Below, piece after piece: positions 3,571 through 15,153 of a DNA stretch of 15,153 nucleotides (positions are counted from its first letter, which is position 1; each line of letters opens with the position of its first letter). The position numbers and the translations under genes were made by a program. A model generated the notes under the pieces. The model was not told the origin of the DNA, searched no databases, and saw nothing but the letters and a program-made list of their open reading frames with translations. The DNA is from Candidatus Woesearchaeota archaeon (GTDB taxonomy: Archaea; Nanobdellota; Nanobdellia; Woesearchaeales; 21-14-0-10-32-9), in the NCBI GenBank assembly GCA_007117145.1, contig SKHC01000017.1, positions 1-15,153 on the forward strand, given 5' to 3'.

Positions 3571-5880
3571 TTATTCTTCAGAATCCTTAATAGCACTAGG
3601 AGCACCTCCTCCGTGCCATGTAAATCTTGGTCTAATCCTTATAGGATACATCTTTTCGTTTGTATCGTCAAATATTATAGCGCTTCCTTTATCTCTTGGT
3701 AGGTTGTCAAGTTGCTCTACTAGTCCTTGTCTCATATAGCTTTGCATAAGTGTTCCAAGAGCGTCAGTGTCTAGTTTAGCTGTGATTCTGTGAGCGATAA
3801 CTGTGTCGCTTTGAGTCATAACGTCTGTGTGAATTTTTCCGGGTTGCTGAGTTGCAAGTATCAAACTTATTCCAGGTTGCCTACCTTCCCTTAATATCGT
3901 AACTAACGGGTCTGTTGCAAGTGTTTTTCCTTTTACAGGTAAAAACTCGTGTGCTTCGTCGATTACCAGCCAAACCATTGGGAAGTCTTGCTTTGTATTT
4001 GTCGAGTCTGAAAATGGATTTTCTGATTTGTGTACTGCTTGGTATTCTTCTTCTTTTCTTGCAATCATTCTTTGTACGAATAATTTATCTGCGATGAGTC
4101 CGATTACTAAGTTTTTCACGTTCCAACTTCCAGGCATCGTAGCATAGCAACTAACATCTAAAACGCTAACTTGTCCTGCTACTGCAACGTCTTTCAAAGT
4201 TGTTCCGTTTTTGCTGAAAAGTCCCCACGTCTTTGCGTTTTGAAACAAGTTCTTTGCTGCACTCACAACGTGTTTTTCAAAGTCTTTTTGTTTTTCTATT
4301 TCTTTTACAATATCTTCTATTTCAAAGTCGTGCATGTTTTCATGCAAATCATTAATGACTTTTTCTATTAAAACTCCTCTGGGCTCTTCTGGTTGTATGC
4401 TAAATGTAAGATTCCAGTCTTTTCCACTAAGCTCGCTTGGTTTAATAGCGAAAGGGTAATCTGTTGGTATGTCTTTTTCTTTGTACTCTTCATGATATTT
4501 GTACGGTGTGAATATTTTTACGTCAAGTGATTTTTCTTCGAGTTCCCATTCTTCAAGTAGTTTTTTGTCTTGCTTGTTTGGGTACTTCATAGTCCAATAT
4601 ACACCCATGGTGTCTAGGATTATGACTGATATGTTGTTTTTTACTTCTTCTGGAAGCTCACTTACTCCTTCAGCTATAACTCCCATAGTGTATGAGTTAT
4701 GAACAATCACGTCGTTTGCAATAAAGTTATTTGTTTCAGGCACAGTTATGTCGTACACTTCCGTTTTTTCTTCAATTTTTTCAAGTTTAACTATCTCGTC
4801 CCAGTAAATATCTGATTCCATTAAGCTTTTAACGAACATGTTGTGTTGCGTTTCACTTATTTCTTTATAGTTGTAGTTGGTGTTTGGAATTACAAATTTT
4901 TTCCCTAATACCTCCCAATCTACAGGGTCGAAGAATTCAAGTACTTCTTCTGGTACGTCTATTGGTTGTAAGTTGTTTACGGTTTCTCTTAGCGCGATTT
5001 TTTGTTTTTCTTCTTTATCTCCCCAAAAGCCTATGTTTTCTAGATACGTTTTTATGAATCCATCTTCAATGTATAAGTATTGAAATCTACTGTTTATCCT
5101 AGTAGTTACCACTCCGAATCTTAAAAGTAAATGTTGTATTTGGCTTGCAATCTTCTTGTTTTTTGCTTTATATGTGATGTACCAATCCCCTTTTTTTCCA
5201 AGTTTTCCATCTGCGCTTAAAACTCTGTTTAAAAACAAAGCTAGTTTGTATTTTGGTAGTTTATATACGCTTTCAGGTACTTCATTTAATTCCTTAACAT
5301 TTAGTTTTTCAATTTCTTTGCTAATCATCTCTTCGTTTAGGGTTTGTGATACTCCGTATGCGATTTCTTTGACTTTGTTTTCTTTTAAGTCAAATTCTCC
5401 AAATACAGGTAGAATTTTCGGGGTGGCTATCCTGTTTCCTATGTTTAAGTCTTGTGCTTCTTCCCATCCATAAATAGTGAGTAGAGGATGTTCAGGTGTG
5501 CACCGTATCACTCTTCCAGTTCCAGTTGTCACTTCAAGTATTTCTTCTACTTCTCGTTTGAAAAAACTATCTTTCTCTTTAGCGTTAATTTTCAAGTTTA
5601 AGTCTAAACTCAATACTGTGTGGTCGTCCAACTCCAAGTCTTTAATATTTTTTAGGCTTCCATCTCCAAGAACTATTTGTGTGTCTCCAGTTAGACATTT
5701 TCCACCGCCTCGTTTACCACATATGAATACTACGTGGCTTTTTGTTACATCAAGCATAACTTTGTTTGACAAACTGGCAACTCTTCCCATCTGAATGTAG
5801 TGTTTTCCGATGTATACAGTACCTTTAGAACCTAAGTCTTTTCTGTCTTTTTCCTCCCTTCCAATAACTATATCGTTCAT
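3571..5880 (-). CDS. herA: HerA-like hexameric ATPase/helicase interrupted by an intein in the P-loop
   Basis: The 769-residue precursor yields a mature ATPase of about 435 residues (1-61 joined to 396-769). Once joined, the Walker A motif is GKRGGGKSYT. Walker B is VWLVIDEAHEF (D641, E642), preceded by a hydrophobic strand. REGRQPGISLILATQQP (664-680) is the arginine-finger/sensor segment of HerA/FtsK-type ATPases. IILDTMGVYWTMKYPN (420-435) is a characteristic HerA-like stretch. These proteins are ring-shaped, ATP-driven DNA translocases; classical HerA works with NurA nuclease and Mre11-Rad50 in end resection. No nurA, mre11 or rad50 is in the window, so this may be one of the stand-alone archaeal HerA paralogues. 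Activity must depend on intein removal, because Lys61 and Ser396 of the P-loop are separated in the precursor. An upstream TATA box suggests a near-leaderless transcript. Confidence 0.9.
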   Translation of the reverse strand: MNDIVIGREEKDRKDLGSKGTVYIGKHYIQMGRVASLSNKVMLDVTKSHVVFICGKRGGGKCLTGDTQIVLGDGSLKNIKDLELDDHTVLSLDLNLKINAKEKDSFFKREVEEILEVTTGTGRVIRCTPEHPLLTIYGWEEAQDLNIGNRIATPKILPVFGEFDLKENKVKEIAYGVSQTLNEEMISKEIEKLNVKELNEVPESVYKLPKYKLALFLNRVLSADGKLGKKGDWYITYKAKNKKIASQIQHLLLRFGVVTTRINSRFQYLYIEDGFIKTYLENIGFWGDKEEKQKIALRETVNNLQPIDVPEEVLEFFDPVDWEVLGKKFVIPNTNYNYKEISETQHNMFVKSLMESDIYWDEIVKLEKIEEKTEVYDITVPETNNFIANDVIVHNSYTMGVIAEGVSELPEEVKNNISVIILDTMGVYWTMKYPNKQDKKLLEEWELEEKSLDVKIFTPYKYHEEYKEKDIPTDYPFAIKPSELSGKDWNLTFSIQPEEPRGVLIEKVINDLHENMHDFEIEDIVKEIEKQKDFEKHVVSAAKNLFQNAKTWGLFSKNGTTLKDVAVAGQVSVLDVSCYATMPGSWNVKNLVIGLIADKLFVQRMIARKEEEYQAVHKSENPFSDSTNTKQDFPMVWLVIDEAHEFLPVKGKTLATDPLVTILREGRQPGISLILATQQPGKIHTDVMTQSDTVIAHRITAKLDTDALGTLMQSYMRQGLVEQLDNLPRDKGSAIIFDDTNEKMYPIRIRPRFTWHGGGAPSAIKDSEE
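4696..5697 (-). mobile_element. Intein (334 residues) with degenerate LAGLIDADG domain, in the HerA Walker A motif
   Basis: The in-frame protein-splicing element occupies residues 62-395 of the HerA precursor. Block A starts with the nucleophile Cys62 (CLTGDTQIVLGDG). Block B has TPEH (T128-H131, the TxxH motif) in GRVIRCTPEHPLLT. Block F is VYDITVPETNNFIAND (375-390), and block G is VIVHN with His394-Asn395, followed by the +1 nucleophile Ser396. The centre holds a DnaB-intein-like endonuclease region: LALFLNRVLSADG (213-225, a degenerate LAGLIDADG motif that keeps the last Asp-Gly), then ASQIQHLLLRFGVVTT (245-260) and an IGFWGDKEEK segment. I see no second clear LAGLIDADG motif, so homing activity may be lost, while all splicing residues are intact. 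The element splits the P-loop exactly between Lys and Ser. Confidence 0.93.
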
Positions 5881-5967: not shown

Positions 5968-6942
5968 GTGATATTTTTGGTTAAAAAGAAATCATTATTA
6001 AAAAGAAAAAAATTTTTTAAACAATATAGTTATCAGCTACTTTCAGCTGTTTTGATTCTAGGTATAGTTGCTGTGTTTTTCTTAACATTTTATTCGAGAT
6101 CCACAACTACAAGTCCTGCTGAAGAAGTTGTAACTGTTAATGGAGACGCAATTACAATGGCAGATGTCCAAAACAGGTTATCATTTGCGACAGGTATGGG
6201 TGCAATGACTACAGAGGAGGAAGTGATAGATGAGCTTGTTACGGAAACTTTACTCTTGCAAGAAGCTGAAAGGCGAGGAGTTAGTGTGAGTGCTGCGCAA
6301 TTCGAAGAAGAGTACCAAACCCTCTTGATGATGAATGGCATAACTGAGCAAGATTTAATGGGTCAGCTTGGTATGATTGGAGTGAGTTTAGAGTACTTTA
6401 AAGAATACTTCAGAGCTAATGTGGTGATAAGCCAGATGCTTGATGACTTAGTTGAAACAATTGAAGTGTCAGACGATGAGATTAATATGTACTACGTTCA
6501 GAACTTAGATCAGTTTAGTCAACCGTCTGCTAGTGTTGTAAGACACATCTTAGTATCTAATGATGTTGAAGGATACGAGCAGGAAGCTGAAAGAATCAGA
6601 GGATTAATCGCGGACGACTTTTCAAACTATTGTGACTTAGTTGAAGAACATACAGATGATGTTGCAAGCGCTGGTACTTGTGGAGAGTACACAGTAAGTG
6701 CAGGGGATCCATTCGTAGAGGAGTTCAAACAAGCAGCGTTAGAGATGGAAGTTGGAGAATTAAGAAGTGTTGAAACTGATTTCGGAGTTCACATTATGTT
6801 AAAGCAAGAAGAGCTTCCAGAGAGGGATTTGCCTTTAAGTGAAGTCAGAAGTGACATAGAGTCATTTTTAAAGCAAAGTCAAGCTCAAGAAGAATTTGAA
6901 GCTTTGCTCTTAGAACTTCAGCAGAACGCAGTGATTATATGA
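5968..6942 (+). CDS. Membrane-anchored parvulin-type (SurA/PrsA-like) peptidyl-prolyl isomerase
   Basis: The 324-residue protein is probably an extracytoplasmic foldase. A basic N-terminus (KKKSLLKRKKFFK) and one hydrophobic segment at about 23-41 anchor it. The absence of a lipobox or obvious cleavage site suggests an uncleaved signal anchor. Residues about 53-165 form a helical SurA/PrsA N-domain, beginning VVTVNGDAITMADVQNRL. The parvulin domain spans about 187-281: SASVVRHILVSND, then LVEEHTDDVASAGTCGEY, DPFVEEFKQAALEMEVGEL and TDFGVHIMLKQEE. A C-terminal helix closes the SurA-type fold. Parvulins are common in bacteria and patchy in archaea, so acquisition by transfer is likely. The start is a GTG at 5968, with no nearby ATG upstream of the membrane helix. 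The chain is strongly acidic outside the anchor. Confidence 0.88.
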   Translation: MIFLVKKKSLLKRKKFFKQYSYQLLSAVLILGIVAVFFLTFYSRSTTTSPAEEVVTVNGDAITMADVQNRLSFATGMGAMTTEEEVIDELVTETLLLQEAERRGVSVSAAQFEEEYQTLLMMNGITEQDLMGQLGMIGVSLEYFKEYFRANVVISQMLDDLVETIEVSDDEINMYYVQNLDQFSQPSASVVRHILVSNDVEGYEQEAERIRGLIADDFSNYCDLVEEHTDDVASAGTCGEYTVSAGDPFVEEFKQAALEMEVGELRSVETDFGVHIMLKQEELPERDLPLSEVRSDIESFLKQSQAQEEFEALLLELQQNAVII

Positions 6943-6965
6943 ATTGTTGTTAATTATTAATAACA

Positions 6966-6973
6966 TTTATATA
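6966..6973 (+). promoter_or_regulatory. TATA box driving the structured RNA / dnaG leader
   Basis: TTTATATA is centred near 6970. Transcription would begin about 25-27 bases downstream, at roughly 6995-6997, which is the first base of the closing stem of the structured element. The inverted repeat TGTTA...TAACA abuts the box on its upstream side. Confidence 0.6.
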
Positions 6974-6995
6974 CTTAATTTTTTTCCTTATATTA

Positions 6996-7103
6996 AGCCC
7001 GACATGAGAGTACTCAATGGAGCTTATGGCGAAACTCCGTAAAAGGAGCACCTGTTAAAAGGTGACCTGGCAATGAGCTTGGGAGTTAGTGTCTCGGGCT
7101 ACA
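6996..7103 (+). ncRNA. Structured RNA of unknown class (domain 1), candidate ncRNA or dnaG leader element
   Basis: AGCCCGA (6996-7002) pairs with TCGGGCT (7094-7100), a perfect 7-bp closing stem over about 91 bases, followed directly by ACA (7101-7103). Inside are TGAG-AGTA-CTCA (7005-7016), AACTCC (7033-7038) able to pair with GGAGTT (7082-7087), and CACCT-GTTAAA-AGGTG (7049-7053 / 7060-7064). An alternative 6-bp hairpin pairs ATGGAG (7017-7022) with CTCCGT (7035-7040). The region is richer in G and C than its surroundings, and the predicted transcription start falls at the 5' end of the stem. The ACA directly after the stem recalls H/ACA guide RNAs, but the size and inner structure do not clearly fit. 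The class is unassigned. Confidence 0.5.
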
Positions 7104-7107
7104 ATAT

Positions 7108-7217
7108 CATAGTCACTATCACTTTAGAACAAGTATTATTATTGTTTTCACACGTATCACAGACCTTGAATGGTCGAAAAACCTTAGTACTTTGTTCTAT
7201 TTGTTTTTATGACTATG
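7108..7217 (+). ncRNA. Long imperfect RNA hairpin (domain 2) between the first RNA element and dnaG
   Basis: CATAGTCA (7108-7115) pairs with TGACTATG (7210-7217), 8 bp. After an asymmetric internal loop, TAGAACAAGTATTA (7125-7138) pairs with TTAGTAC-T-TTGTTCTA (7185-7199), 14 bp with one G-U pair and one bulged T at 7191. The apical region contains a small hairpin, GACC (7162-7165) with GGTC (7172-7175). The 22 paired positions spanning 110 bases make a coincidental arrangement unlikely, but no family is recognised. No T tract follows, so transcription probably continues into dnaG. Confidence 0.5.
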
Positions 7218-7244
7218 TCTCAACGTAAAACTAGAAATTATTTA

Positions 7245-7249
7245 GGAGG
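7245..7249 (+). promoter_or_regulatory. Shine-Dalgarno of dnaG
   Basis: GGAGG lies nine bases before the ATG at 7259. It is one of two strong ribosome-binding sites in the window and confirms that dnaG is translated from a leadered mRNA. Confidence 0.8.
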
Positions 7250-7258
7250 CATAAAAAA

Positions 7259-8563
7259 ATGGCGAAAATCGCACAAGTATCCGCAAAATATATTATTAAT
7301 GCGAACATCTTTATAGAGGGAGTTGTTGATAGACCTGACGTTATCGGAGCAATCTTTGGTCAAACAGAGGGTTTGCTAGGAGCAGACTTAGAGCTCAGAG
7401 AGCTACAAAAGTCAGGTAGAATCGGCAGAATAGAAGTTAATCTTTCAACGAAAACCGGAAAAACAACTGGTGAAATAATAATTCCAAGTAGTTTAGACAA
7501 GGCTGAAACAAGTATTGTCGGGGCTGCTATTGAAATTATTCAAAGAATAGGTCCATGTAATGCTAAAGTCGAAGTTACTAAAATCGAAGATATCAGGATT
7601 AGCAAAAGAGAAAGCGTTATTACAAGAGCTAAAATTTTGCTAAAAGATTTAATGGATAAATCAATGCCTGACAGCCAGGAGTTAAGTGATGAAGTTGCTT
7701 ACAGTGTTAGGATGATGGAAATCAGTAGTTATGGTAAAGAGAAGCTAGCTTGTGGTCCAGGTATTGATGAAGCAGAAGAAGTTATCTTAGTTGAAGGAAG
7801 AGCAGATGTTTTAACACTTCTTAAGCACGGGTTTAAAAACGTGATTTCTATAAATGGTACAAGTATACCTCAAACTATTATCGACCTTGGCAAGGAAAAA
7901 GTTCTAACAGTTTTTGTCGATGGAGATAGAGGTGGAAAACTTATTGTTCAAGAATTACTTGGCACCGTCGAGTTAGATTACGTAACGAAGGCTCCGGATG
8001 GTAAAGAAGTGGAAGAGTTAACAAAAAAAGAAATTCACAAAGCTTTAAGGAGTAAGATAACTGCTGAGCAGGCAAGACTGGAAATGTCAGGAGACAATGG
8101 AAACGGTCATGACAGAAGAAACAGCAGAGATTCAAGAGATAGATCTAGTAGTCAAAGAAGTGATTCTAGAGACAGACCTAGTAGTCAAAGAAGTGATTCG
8201 AGAGAGAGAAGTGATTCGAGAGACAGAAGACCAAGTCCAAGATCTACTCCTACGCAGTCTGCTAAAGATGCAACACAAGCAGAACAAGCAAAGTTTAAGA
8301 CCATGATTGAAGACTTAATTGGTACTCGTGGAGCTTACATACTAGATGCTAAGTTAAACATTTTGGGGAAAGTTCCTGTAACTGAGCTTGTGAGCACAAT
8401 TAAAAGTCTTGGTAGTGGGATGTACGCTGTTTTATTTGATGGCAAGGTAGAAAAAGATTTAGTGGGTGTTGCTGAAAGGTCAAATATTAATTATTTGGTT
8501 GGAATGGACAGTCAAGTTAAATCTTCAGATAGCGTAAAAATATACTCTGTATACCAATTATAA
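7259..8563 (+). CDS. dnaG: Archaeal DnaG-like primase / exosome-associated TOPRIM protein with an RS-rich linker
   Basis: The 434-residue archaeal DnaG homologue is, in this family, a stable component of the RNA exosome that helps poly(A)-rich substrate binding, and some members have weak primase activity. The N-terminal domain (1-165) includes MAKIAQVSAKYIINANIFIE and LLGADLELRELQKSGRIGRI. The TOPRIM domain (about 174-255) has VEGRADV (Glu179) and DGDRGG (Asp221, Asp223), the metal-binding residues. The conserved C-terminal domain starts near 346 (FKTMIEDLIGTRGAYILD). Between them, residues about 286-330 form an Arg/Ser/Asp-rich low-complexity linker built from DSRDR(S/P)SSQRS repeats. Translation starts at ATG 7259, downstream of a strong Shine-Dalgarno and a long structured leader. 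A T-rich terminator follows. Confidence 0.95.
   Translation: MAKIAQVSAKYIINANIFIEGVVDRPDVIGAIFGQTEGLLGADLELRELQKSGRIGRIEVNLSTKTGKTTGEIIIPSSLDKAETSIVGAAIEIIQRIGPCNAKVEVTKIEDIRISKRESVITRAKILLKDLMDKSMPDSQELSDEVAYSVRMMEISSYGKEKLACGPGIDEAEEVILVEGRADVLTLLKHGFKNVISINGTSIPQTIIDLGKEKVLTVFVDGDRGGKLIVQELLGTVELDYVTKAPDGKEVEELTKKEIHKALRSKITAEQARLEMSGDNGNGHDRRNSRDSRDRSSSQRSDSRDRPSSQRSDSRERSDSRDRRPSPRSTPTQSAKDATQAEQAKFKTMIEDLIGTRGAYILDAKLNILGKVPVTELVSTIKSLGSGMYAVLFDGKVEKDLVGVAERSNINYLVGMDSQVKSSDSVKIYSVYQL
8129..8242 (+). repeat. Imperfect tandem repeats encoding the RS-rich linker of DnaG
   Basis: Two 33-base copies (8129-8161 and 8162-8194) differ at only a few positions. They are followed by a shortened 18-base copy (8195-8212) and a divergent last unit (8213-8242), all starting GATTC(A/T/G)AGAGA. 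They encode DSRDRSSSQRS, DSRDRPSSQRS, DSRERS and DSRDRRPSPR. All lengths are multiples of three, so unit gain or loss keeps the frame. The near-identical DNA, including third codon positions, points to recent duplication. Confidence 0.88.
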
Positions 8564-13992: not shown

Positions 13993-15138
13993 TTATTTTT
14001 TTATTTCTTCGTGAACGAGTATGGTCCAAAATAATCTGGTTAATACATCATCATCTCGTTTCTTTGATAACTTGGTTAAGTTCATGTATTCTTCAAATGA
14101 GCCCATTTTTAGAAGTATTAGGGGAAAACCATTTTTCATCATTATCCAATTTAAAATCATTCTTGTTGTTCTACTATTTCCATCAGCGAATGGGTGTATT
14201 CTTTGAAGTTCGTTATGAATCCATCCTAATTTGTTTAAACAATTATTTGGGTTCATTTTTTTTATTTCTGAGCAGAAAATTTTCATTTGGTATTGAACTT
14301 GGTTTGGAGGTGTTGTTTTAAAATCAGGATTGCCTTGAATTTTATTTTGAGTTATTTTGTATTTTCCTGCATGTCTGTGCATACTGAACATAACTAAGTA
14401 ATTTATTTTCTTTATGTGTTCTTCAGTAATTTCATCATCAACGTTCTCCAAAACATAGAGGAGTGCTTCGTTAAGATTTTTTACCATTTGTATGTCTTTT
14501 TGGGGTTTATCTGGGTATATATCATTAACTAATAATTCTCTTGTTTCACCAATAGAAATGGTTGCTCCTTCTAGCTGAGCACTGCCTGCGAGAAATGAAA
14601 ATATTTCTTCATCGAAAGGATTTACTGGTTTTCCTTTAATTCTTTTAACTTTTTGTTCTACTTCTTTAAAAAATAAATTAGGTTTAGGCACTCTCTGTTT
14701 AATATCAAAAAATCCTGATAAGTTTTCTAATAGTTGATGTCTTAACATAGTTCCTATATAAGGTCTTTTTTTATGAACTAAAATGAATTGATTGTTTTCT
14801 AAGTATGATAAGACGTTTAAGATGTCTTTGTTATTTTTTAATTTAGGTGGACGCAAATTCGGAGTATTTTTAATTAGCTCATTCAAAATCAAAGGTATGT
14901 TTTTTGAGAAAAACAAGTTATAATCTAAATTATTTTTTATGCAATATTTAATTATTTTAAATGCGAAAATTGTTTTATTGTTTTTAATTGGGGCGTAAGA
15001 TTTATTTTGTTCTTTAACAAACCCTATTTTTACTAATTCTTTTAGTTGAACAAATACTTCGCTTCTAAAACCTAGTTCTGATTCTCTTGAAGGACTTTTT
15101 TCTATTAGCTTAGCAAATACATCATATTTTGTTGGCAT
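13993..15138 (-). CDS. Fic-domain protein (AMPylator-type) with N-terminal inhibitory motif and HTH-like head
   Basis: This is a 381-residue protein if it starts at ATG 15138. An in-frame GTG at the window edge (15153) or further upstream cannot be excluded. The Fic motif at 315-326 is HPFADGNSRTTR, against the family HPFx(D/E)GNGRxxR: catalytic His and Arg are present, but the second Gly is Ser. The N-terminal half holds the class II inhibitory helix motif SAQLEG (186-191, (S/T)xxxE(G/N)), followed by the Fic core. Residues about 1-50 resemble a winged-helix (LRELVKIGFVKEQ-like) DNA-binding head. Fic enzymes transfer AMP or related groups to Ser/Thr/Tyr hydroxyls of target proteins, and the inhibitory Glu limits activity. 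No separate antitoxin is visible. Class II proteins regulate themselves. Confidence 0.87.
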   Translation of the reverse strand: MPTKYDVFAKLIEKSPSRESELGFRSEVFVQLKELVKIGFVKEQNKSYAPIKNNKTIFAFKIIKYCIKNNLDYNLFFSKNIPLILNELIKNTPNLRPPKLKNNKDILNVLSYLENNQFILVHKKRPYIGTMLRHQLLENLSGFFDIKQRVPKPNLFFKEVEQKVKRIKGKPVNPFDEEIFSFLAGSAQLEGATISIGETRELLVNDIYPDKPQKDIQMVKNLNEALLYVLENVDDEITEEHIKKINYLVMFSMHRHAGKYKITQNKIQGNPDFKTTPPNQVQYQMKIFCSEIKKMNPNNCLNKLGWIHNELQRIHPFADGNSRTTRMILNWIMMKNGFPLILLKMGSFEEYMNLTKLSKKRDDDVLTRLFWTILVHEEIKK

Positions 15139-15153
15139 GACTAATAGAAACAC

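Follow-up and report, generated by a model that had tools for sequence, protein, structure and literature searches.

The segment between positions 6996 and 7103 of the 15,153-nt window (the whole stretch of woesearchaeal DNA analysed here) is quite probably an archaeal guide RNA of the H/ACA type with one hairpin, directed at helix 69 of 23S rRNA and made as the leading portion of the dnaG transcript. The initial annotation of this DNA had proposed a long structured RNA ahead of dnaG. This proposal is borne out, as the element is conserved, its stems covary and it folds better than shuffled sequences. The accompanying remark that it could be matched to no RNA class known to the annotator is not supported, since the hairpin is built like an archaeal H/ACA guide and has a plausible ribosomal target. 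Autoregulation through decay of the leader by its own gene product, which the annotation offered as an idea, is conceivable.

DPANN archaea are mostly uncultured, and to our knowledge few studies have addressed their guide RNAs. An RNA that has a predicted target in the ribosome and almost always occurs once per genome would form a new Rfam family. Its position before the gene of an exosome subunit would allow a direct test of whether rRNA modification and RNA decay are linked.

Architecture of the dnaG Leader

All elements of the DnaG leader named in the initial annotation can be read off the window sequence. These are the 7-bp stem 6996-7002/7094-7100 (AGCCCGA/TCGGGCT), the second element with its 8-bp arms (7108-7115/7210-7217) and inner arms at about 7125-7135/7188-7199 with one bulged base, the TATA box and the Shine-Dalgarno sequence. 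The whole leader folds better than its dinucleotide shuffles (z −3.67, 0/200 as good). The following features were assigned:

6964..6974 (+): TATA-type box CATTTATATAC, just over 20 nt 5′ of the guide hairpin
6996..7103 (+): H/ACA-type guide hairpin including the ACA box, based on covariance model R1, anatomy and target match
6996..7005 (+): 5′ strand of the lower stem (AGCCCGA + CAU), pairing with 7089-7100
7006..7011 (+): guide strand on the 5′ side of the pocket (GAGAGU), which can pair with ACUCUC in helix 69 (23S 1919-1924)
7013..7018 (+): 5′ strand of the upper stem, pairing with 7078-7083
7020..7023 (+): non-bulged strand of the K-turn motif (GAGC); GA in 50/54 aligned sequences, AA in 4/54
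7024..7069 (+): extension at the apex that adds two hairpins, also found in G004, G005, G007 and G010 of the family
7070..7076 (+): bulged strand of the K-turn motif (GCAAUGA); GA in 54/54, the preceding U in 53/54
7084..7088 (+): guide strand on the 3′ side of the pocket (AGUUA), which can pair with UAACU in helix 69 (1911-1915)
7089..7100 (+): 3′ strand of the lower stem with a 2-nt bulge (7092-7093); pairing assigned by reading and supported by the structure count over 54 sequences
7101..7103 (+): box, ACA in the window
7108..7217 (+): second leader element, hairpin A, with UCAC at 7148-7151 and 7157-7160
7244..7249 (+): Shine-Dalgarno AGGAGG, from the sequence
7259..8563 (+): dnaG, start ATG at 7259; NCBIfam NF003108, 477.9 bits against a cut-off of 300

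A loose Shine-Dalgarno match is present in 100 of 109 dnaG leaders. Between the guide hairpin and dnaG lie 92 to 557 nt, with a median of 216 nt (109 leaders, 107 distinct). Archaeal DnaG has been described as a cap subunit of the exosome (PMC4227792).

Anatomy of the Probable Guide Hairpin

The hairpin combines a covarying stem-pocket-stem structure with a K-turn motif in its upper part and, in the window, an ANA box 3′ of the lower stem. Its assignment to the H/ACA class rests on the K-turn motif, the CA-ending box that follows the lower stem and the single strands of the internal loop, which are near-invariant among the aligned relatives. The stretch 6994-7102 folds at −42.3 kcal/mol compared with −27.1 ± 3.3 kcal/mol for 200 dinucleotide shuffles, none of which is as good (z −4.67). 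The K-turn, recognized as a sequence motif, consists of GGAGC facing GC-AAU-GA, and its tandem G-A is complete in 50 of the 54 aligned sequences. The box trinucleotide, placed after the lower stem plus one base, is ACA in 40 of these sequences, UCA in 7, CCA in 4 and GCA in 3; the latter 14 boxes end in CA, lack the first A and are thus not ANA.

In archaeal H/ACA RNAs, the box is reported to lie 14-16 nt from the pair closing the pocket, with a GA stem of 10 layers in productive folds (PMC4652768). Here, ACA lies 17 nt from the last canonical pair of the upper stem, with 9 layers; counting the A-A layer gives 16 nt and 10 layers.

The apical region is a short loop in most relatives, and a few carry other long inserts. 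The length of the window's extension (7024-7069) is common to the four relatives listed above and not to G001, which is of the same genus.

Conservation and Linkage to dnaG

A DNA search in 118 relatives revealed two conserved hairpin blocks (about 1-41 and 77-109) with a variable middle. The alignment comprised 54 of the 79 distinct hairpin sequences collected. The consensus structure pairs 90.0% of the cells compared with 25-40% for slid versions, an excess partly owed to the structure having been hand-written on the same 54 sequences. Double-sided changes were found in 10 of 22 pairs (104 cells vs. 36 in shuffles). In the upper stem (7013-7018/7078-7083), both sides changed in 4 of 6 pairs. 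In the lower stem, four sequences have UAC/GUA or AAC/GUU in place of CAC/GUG. The sixth pair is seen as A-U, U-A, C-G and G-C.

Within the phylum, 371 genomes were sampled, and 232 of them matched the covariance model R1 at E up to 0.01; the other 139 gave no match and may lack the RNA or carry a divergent form. One of the 139, G351, has both dnaG and hairpin A next to a weak R1 match (E 0.002). The RNA is nearly always present in one copy per genome; among the matches listed, two copies were found in G072 and G291. The window itself, which belongs to the training set of R1, scored E 1.5e-18. The initial annotation would have been refuted by stems lacking conservation or covariation among close relatives; in the guide hairpin, conservation and covariation were both seen.

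When 80 loci were selected by their DnaG, R1 matched 77, many of them belonging to the training set. In the remaining three, only 214 nt (L086) and 180 nt (L121) precede dnaG, or the 3′ part alone is visible (L096). In all 30 loci taken from R1 matches, dnaG was located directly downstream on the same strand. Four of these came from the window's order; the remaining 26 belong to the class but to different orders, and the linkage was kept in each of them.

Complementarity to Helix 69 of 23S rRNA

Positions inside the helix 69 loop (1911-1915 and 1919-1924) follow E. coli numbering. The target scan counted Watson-Crick pairs only and used the consensus pocket GAGAGUA/AGUUA rather than the guide of each genome. 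A 23S match was obtained in 25 genomes, and 21 full-length 23S genes were scanned, 8 of them with flanking sequence and 13 after trimming to the gene. Helix 69 (GUAACUAUAACUCUC; E. coli 1915/1917) was the best site for the consensus pocket in all 21 genes, with 6 + 5 = 11 pairs. No site of more than 8 pairs was found for this pocket in the 12 16S genes scanned. With equal search freedom in the 23S and 16S rRNA of one relative, 11 pairs were reached by 6 of 3000 shuffled pockets. The helix 69 sequence is identical in 21 loci, which partly overlap the 21 scanned. The window's own genome (80% complete) gave no 23S match.

The common form of the pocket leaves 3-4 nt of the target unpaired, compared with the canonical 2. 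A rare pocket, GAGAGUUA with GUUA (3/109 leaders), leaves exactly U1915-A1916 unpaired and forms 12 pairs, which was matched by 1 of 5000 shuffles. Of 109 leaders, 62 contain GAGAGUA; the 26 leaders of other orders all lack it. In 21 of the 26 guides of other orders the strand is GAGAAUA, which mismatches helix 69 as known from the window's order; a 23S gene from the GAGAAUA clades was searched for, and none was found. In other archaea, helix 69 has been reported to be served by the H/ACA hairpins Pab40.3, Pf7.3, Af4.3 and Hvo2 (PMC4652768, PMC2584109).

Tandem Upstream Hairpin

Many relatives carry an additional upstream hairpin built in the same way as the guide hairpin. The box of this additional hairpin is where the two join. 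Its alignment consisted of 35 of 38 sequences picked by a motif rule. Double changes occurred in 15 of 17 pairs. The covariance model of this hairpin, R2, matched 39 of 77 dnaG-chosen leaders, most of them in the training set, and every match ended where the guide hairpin begins. Only one of the 30 RNA-chosen loci, from the window's order, possessed this hairpin. It was sought in the window and in its genome (80% complete) and not found.

The 23S A-loop is tentatively proposed as the target of the upstream hairpin, judging by base complementarity. Its pocket formed 10 pairs with the A-loop in 6 of 13 trimmed 23S genes, a result equalled by 128 of 3000 shuffled pockets. When guide and A-loop of 11 genomes were set side by side, five paired fully and three with one wobble. 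In G124, both were changed in step with only 4 pairs kept, and the fit was poor in G011 and G118.

Promoter Position and Transcript

Of the 70 leaders without the upstream hairpin, 45 have a TATA motif 15-40 nt ahead of the guide hairpin (25-nt stretch). In leaders with the upstream hairpin, the motif preceded that hairpin in 35 of 39 (41-nt stretch) and was found between the two hairpins in 0 of 39. The background was 8 of 109 in a 25-nt stretch. Before dnaG, four 25-nt stretches contained the motif in 1, 1, 2 and 1 of 109 leaders. Several of the 25 leaders without a TATA motif show other AT-rich boxes, which were left out of the count. Since the TATA motif stands before the first hairpin and dnaG apparently lacks one of its own, the guide hairpin and dnaG are probably on one transcript.

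Runs of at least five T were present in 46 of 107 distinct gaps between guide and dnaG compared with 34 expected; the window has such a run at 7204-7208. As such runs are not depleted, the RNA could end before dnaG. For the same reason, the rarity of TTTT was dropped as an argument against termination.

Hairpin A and Its UCAY Motifs

Hairpin A was recognized by a loose rule, (U)AGAACAAG...CUUGUUCUA, in 83 of 109 leaders. UCAY, a tetranucleotide bound by KH domains, occurs 574 times in the 107 distinct gaps compared with 262 ± 12 in 60 dinucleotide shuffles and 168 on the other strand; the leaders are related to one another, and these counts overstate independence. Within hairpin A, 218 copies lie in the 5′ half and 8 in the 3′ half. 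This hairpin hints at a new RNA-binding regulator.

The exact hairpin A pattern was found at 28 places in the 371 genomes, 16 of them in dnaG leaders with the guide upstream. The remaining 12 look like chance, and a control pattern matched 17 genomes; the idea of a wider regulon was dropped.

A further hairpin is situated between hairpin A and dnaG in L077, L090, L117, L126 and L128 and was not seen in the window. It has GAAGGAG- or GAAGC-type arms and AUCAU repeats in the loop, and a narrow rule detected it in 15 of 109 leaders. Small frames noticed by eye in hairpin B of relatives were discarded, as at least two relatives (L107, L126) have no ATG there.

Relation to Known RNA Classes

The Rfam search suggested in the initial annotation returned no known class at the cut-off: Rfam 15 gave no match to the leader RNA at gathering level in the window and three relatives. 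Readings as SRP RNA, RNase P RNA, tRNA or 5S rRNA were dropped, none being reported in the window by Rfam or ARAGORN.

Among described RNAs, the third hairpin of Pab40/Pf7/HgcG (RF00064; Pa40.3, Pf7.3) and Af4.3 are H/ACA guides for the equivalent of E. coli position 1915 (PMC4652768, PMC2584109). RF00064 has three hairpins, whereas the dnaG-leader RNA has one or two and is placed before dnaG; the two are set apart by this layout and not by direct sequence comparison. RF00064 (cut-off 77 bits) gave no match in window positions 6940-7265 up to E 10. Its best match was to the relative L093 (9.4 bits, E 2.4), disappeared in a shorter L093 stretch and was absent in two other relatives.

In Haloferax volcanii HP1/HP2 (Hvo1/Hvo2), one hairpin has been proposed to serve both helix 69 positions via alternative folds (PMC2584109, PMC4652768). 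The dnaG-leader guide resembles this hairpin in the 10- and 11-pair modes predicted for it on helix 69. The partner hairpin of Haloferax differs in its target, position 2621 (E. coli 2586) (PMC2584109, PMC4652768). The 159-nt H/ACA sRNA of Nanoarchaeum equitans is similar to the tandem arrangement, with two K-turn hairpins separated only by ACA (PMC3491384). This likeness is one of description, and the location, between NEQ389 and NEQ392, is different (PMC3491384). The l7ae mRNA also contains a K-turn in an archaeal 5′ leader; it has been described as serving translational autoregulation of l7ae, and no guide function is described for it in the abstract (PMC5539422).

Open-access literature yielded nothing on Woesearchaeota ACA-box sRNA or on dnaG together with ACA sRNA, and among papers on Woesearchaeota noncoding RNA there was, by title, nothing on a dnaG-leader guide. 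The H/ACA class is known, and the dnaG-leader family and its setting were not met in the literature searched.

Proposed Function and Alternative Explanations

According to the proposed mechanism, transcription from the TATA box just upstream would run through the guide hairpin into dnaG. The K-turn would be bound by L7Ae, and Cbf5, Nop10 and Gar1 would take the pocket and the ACA box. The pocket strands GAGAGU and AGUUA would then hold helix 69 of 23S rRNA, and Cbf5 would convert U1915 and/or U1917 (E. coli numbering) into pseudouridine. Once expressed and assembled into the RNP, the guide might be cut out of the mRNA or work while attached to it.

It seems unlikely that the guide is an independent H/ACA gene keeping its place beside dnaG, with a transcript ending before the latter. 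The T5 runs in the gaps agree with such a gene, as does the intergenic sRNA of N. equitans (PMC3491384), but a TATA motif precedes dnaG in at most 2 of 109 leaders per stretch, and the linkage is kept in all loci of other orders. This explanation overlaps the preferred one in everything save the shared transcript, and their probabilities are not exclusive. The non-canonical gap at helix 69 and the GAGAAUA pockets of other orders could instead suggest that this H/ACA-type RNA acts mainly on some other RNA or on an mRNA. Such a target is improbable, given that helix 69 is the best site in every 23S gene scanned, is rarely equalled among shuffles and is served by H/ACA RNAs of other archaea (PMC4652768).

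A leader that is cis-regulatory only would bind L7Ae, DnaG or another exosome protein through the K-turn hairpin and hairpin A, tune the translation or decay of dnaG and modify no rRNA. The linkage to dnaG, the near absence of TATA motifs before this gene together with the frequent loose Shine-Dalgarno match, and the second conserved hairpin are in line with it, and L7Ae has been reported to repress via a leader K-turn (PMC5539422). However, this reading leaves the helix 69 complementarity, the ACA-type box and the tandem H/ACA hairpin unexplained and is quite improbable.

The helix 69 guide could also be one half of a leader with two functions, in which UCAY of the 3′ hairpin A is read by an RNA-binding protein, e.g., Rrp4 of the exosome cap. 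This extension is rather doubtful at present. If true, it would tie the maturation of a ribosome-modifying RNP to the synthesis of an exosome subunit through one transcript in a large part of the class.

Protein Partners and Neighboring Genes

Cbf5 carries a TruB_N domain. A TruB_N protein was found in the window's genome (640 kb, 80% complete) and also in all 14 control genomes including bacteria, and the match is therefore unspecific. Nop10 was detected in the window's genome and, among the 14 controls, only in the four archaea. The L7Ae match in the window's genome contains one in-frame TGA.

The DnaG protein of the window has an Arg/Ser/Asp-rich repeat stretch (residues 283-329; 8105-8245) C-terminal to the Toprim domain. 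On the minus strand, a frame for a HerA-like ATPase at 3571-5880 includes an intein splicing domain and a LAGLIDADG domain, and a Fic/DOC family protein at 13993-15153 is cut off at the window's end.
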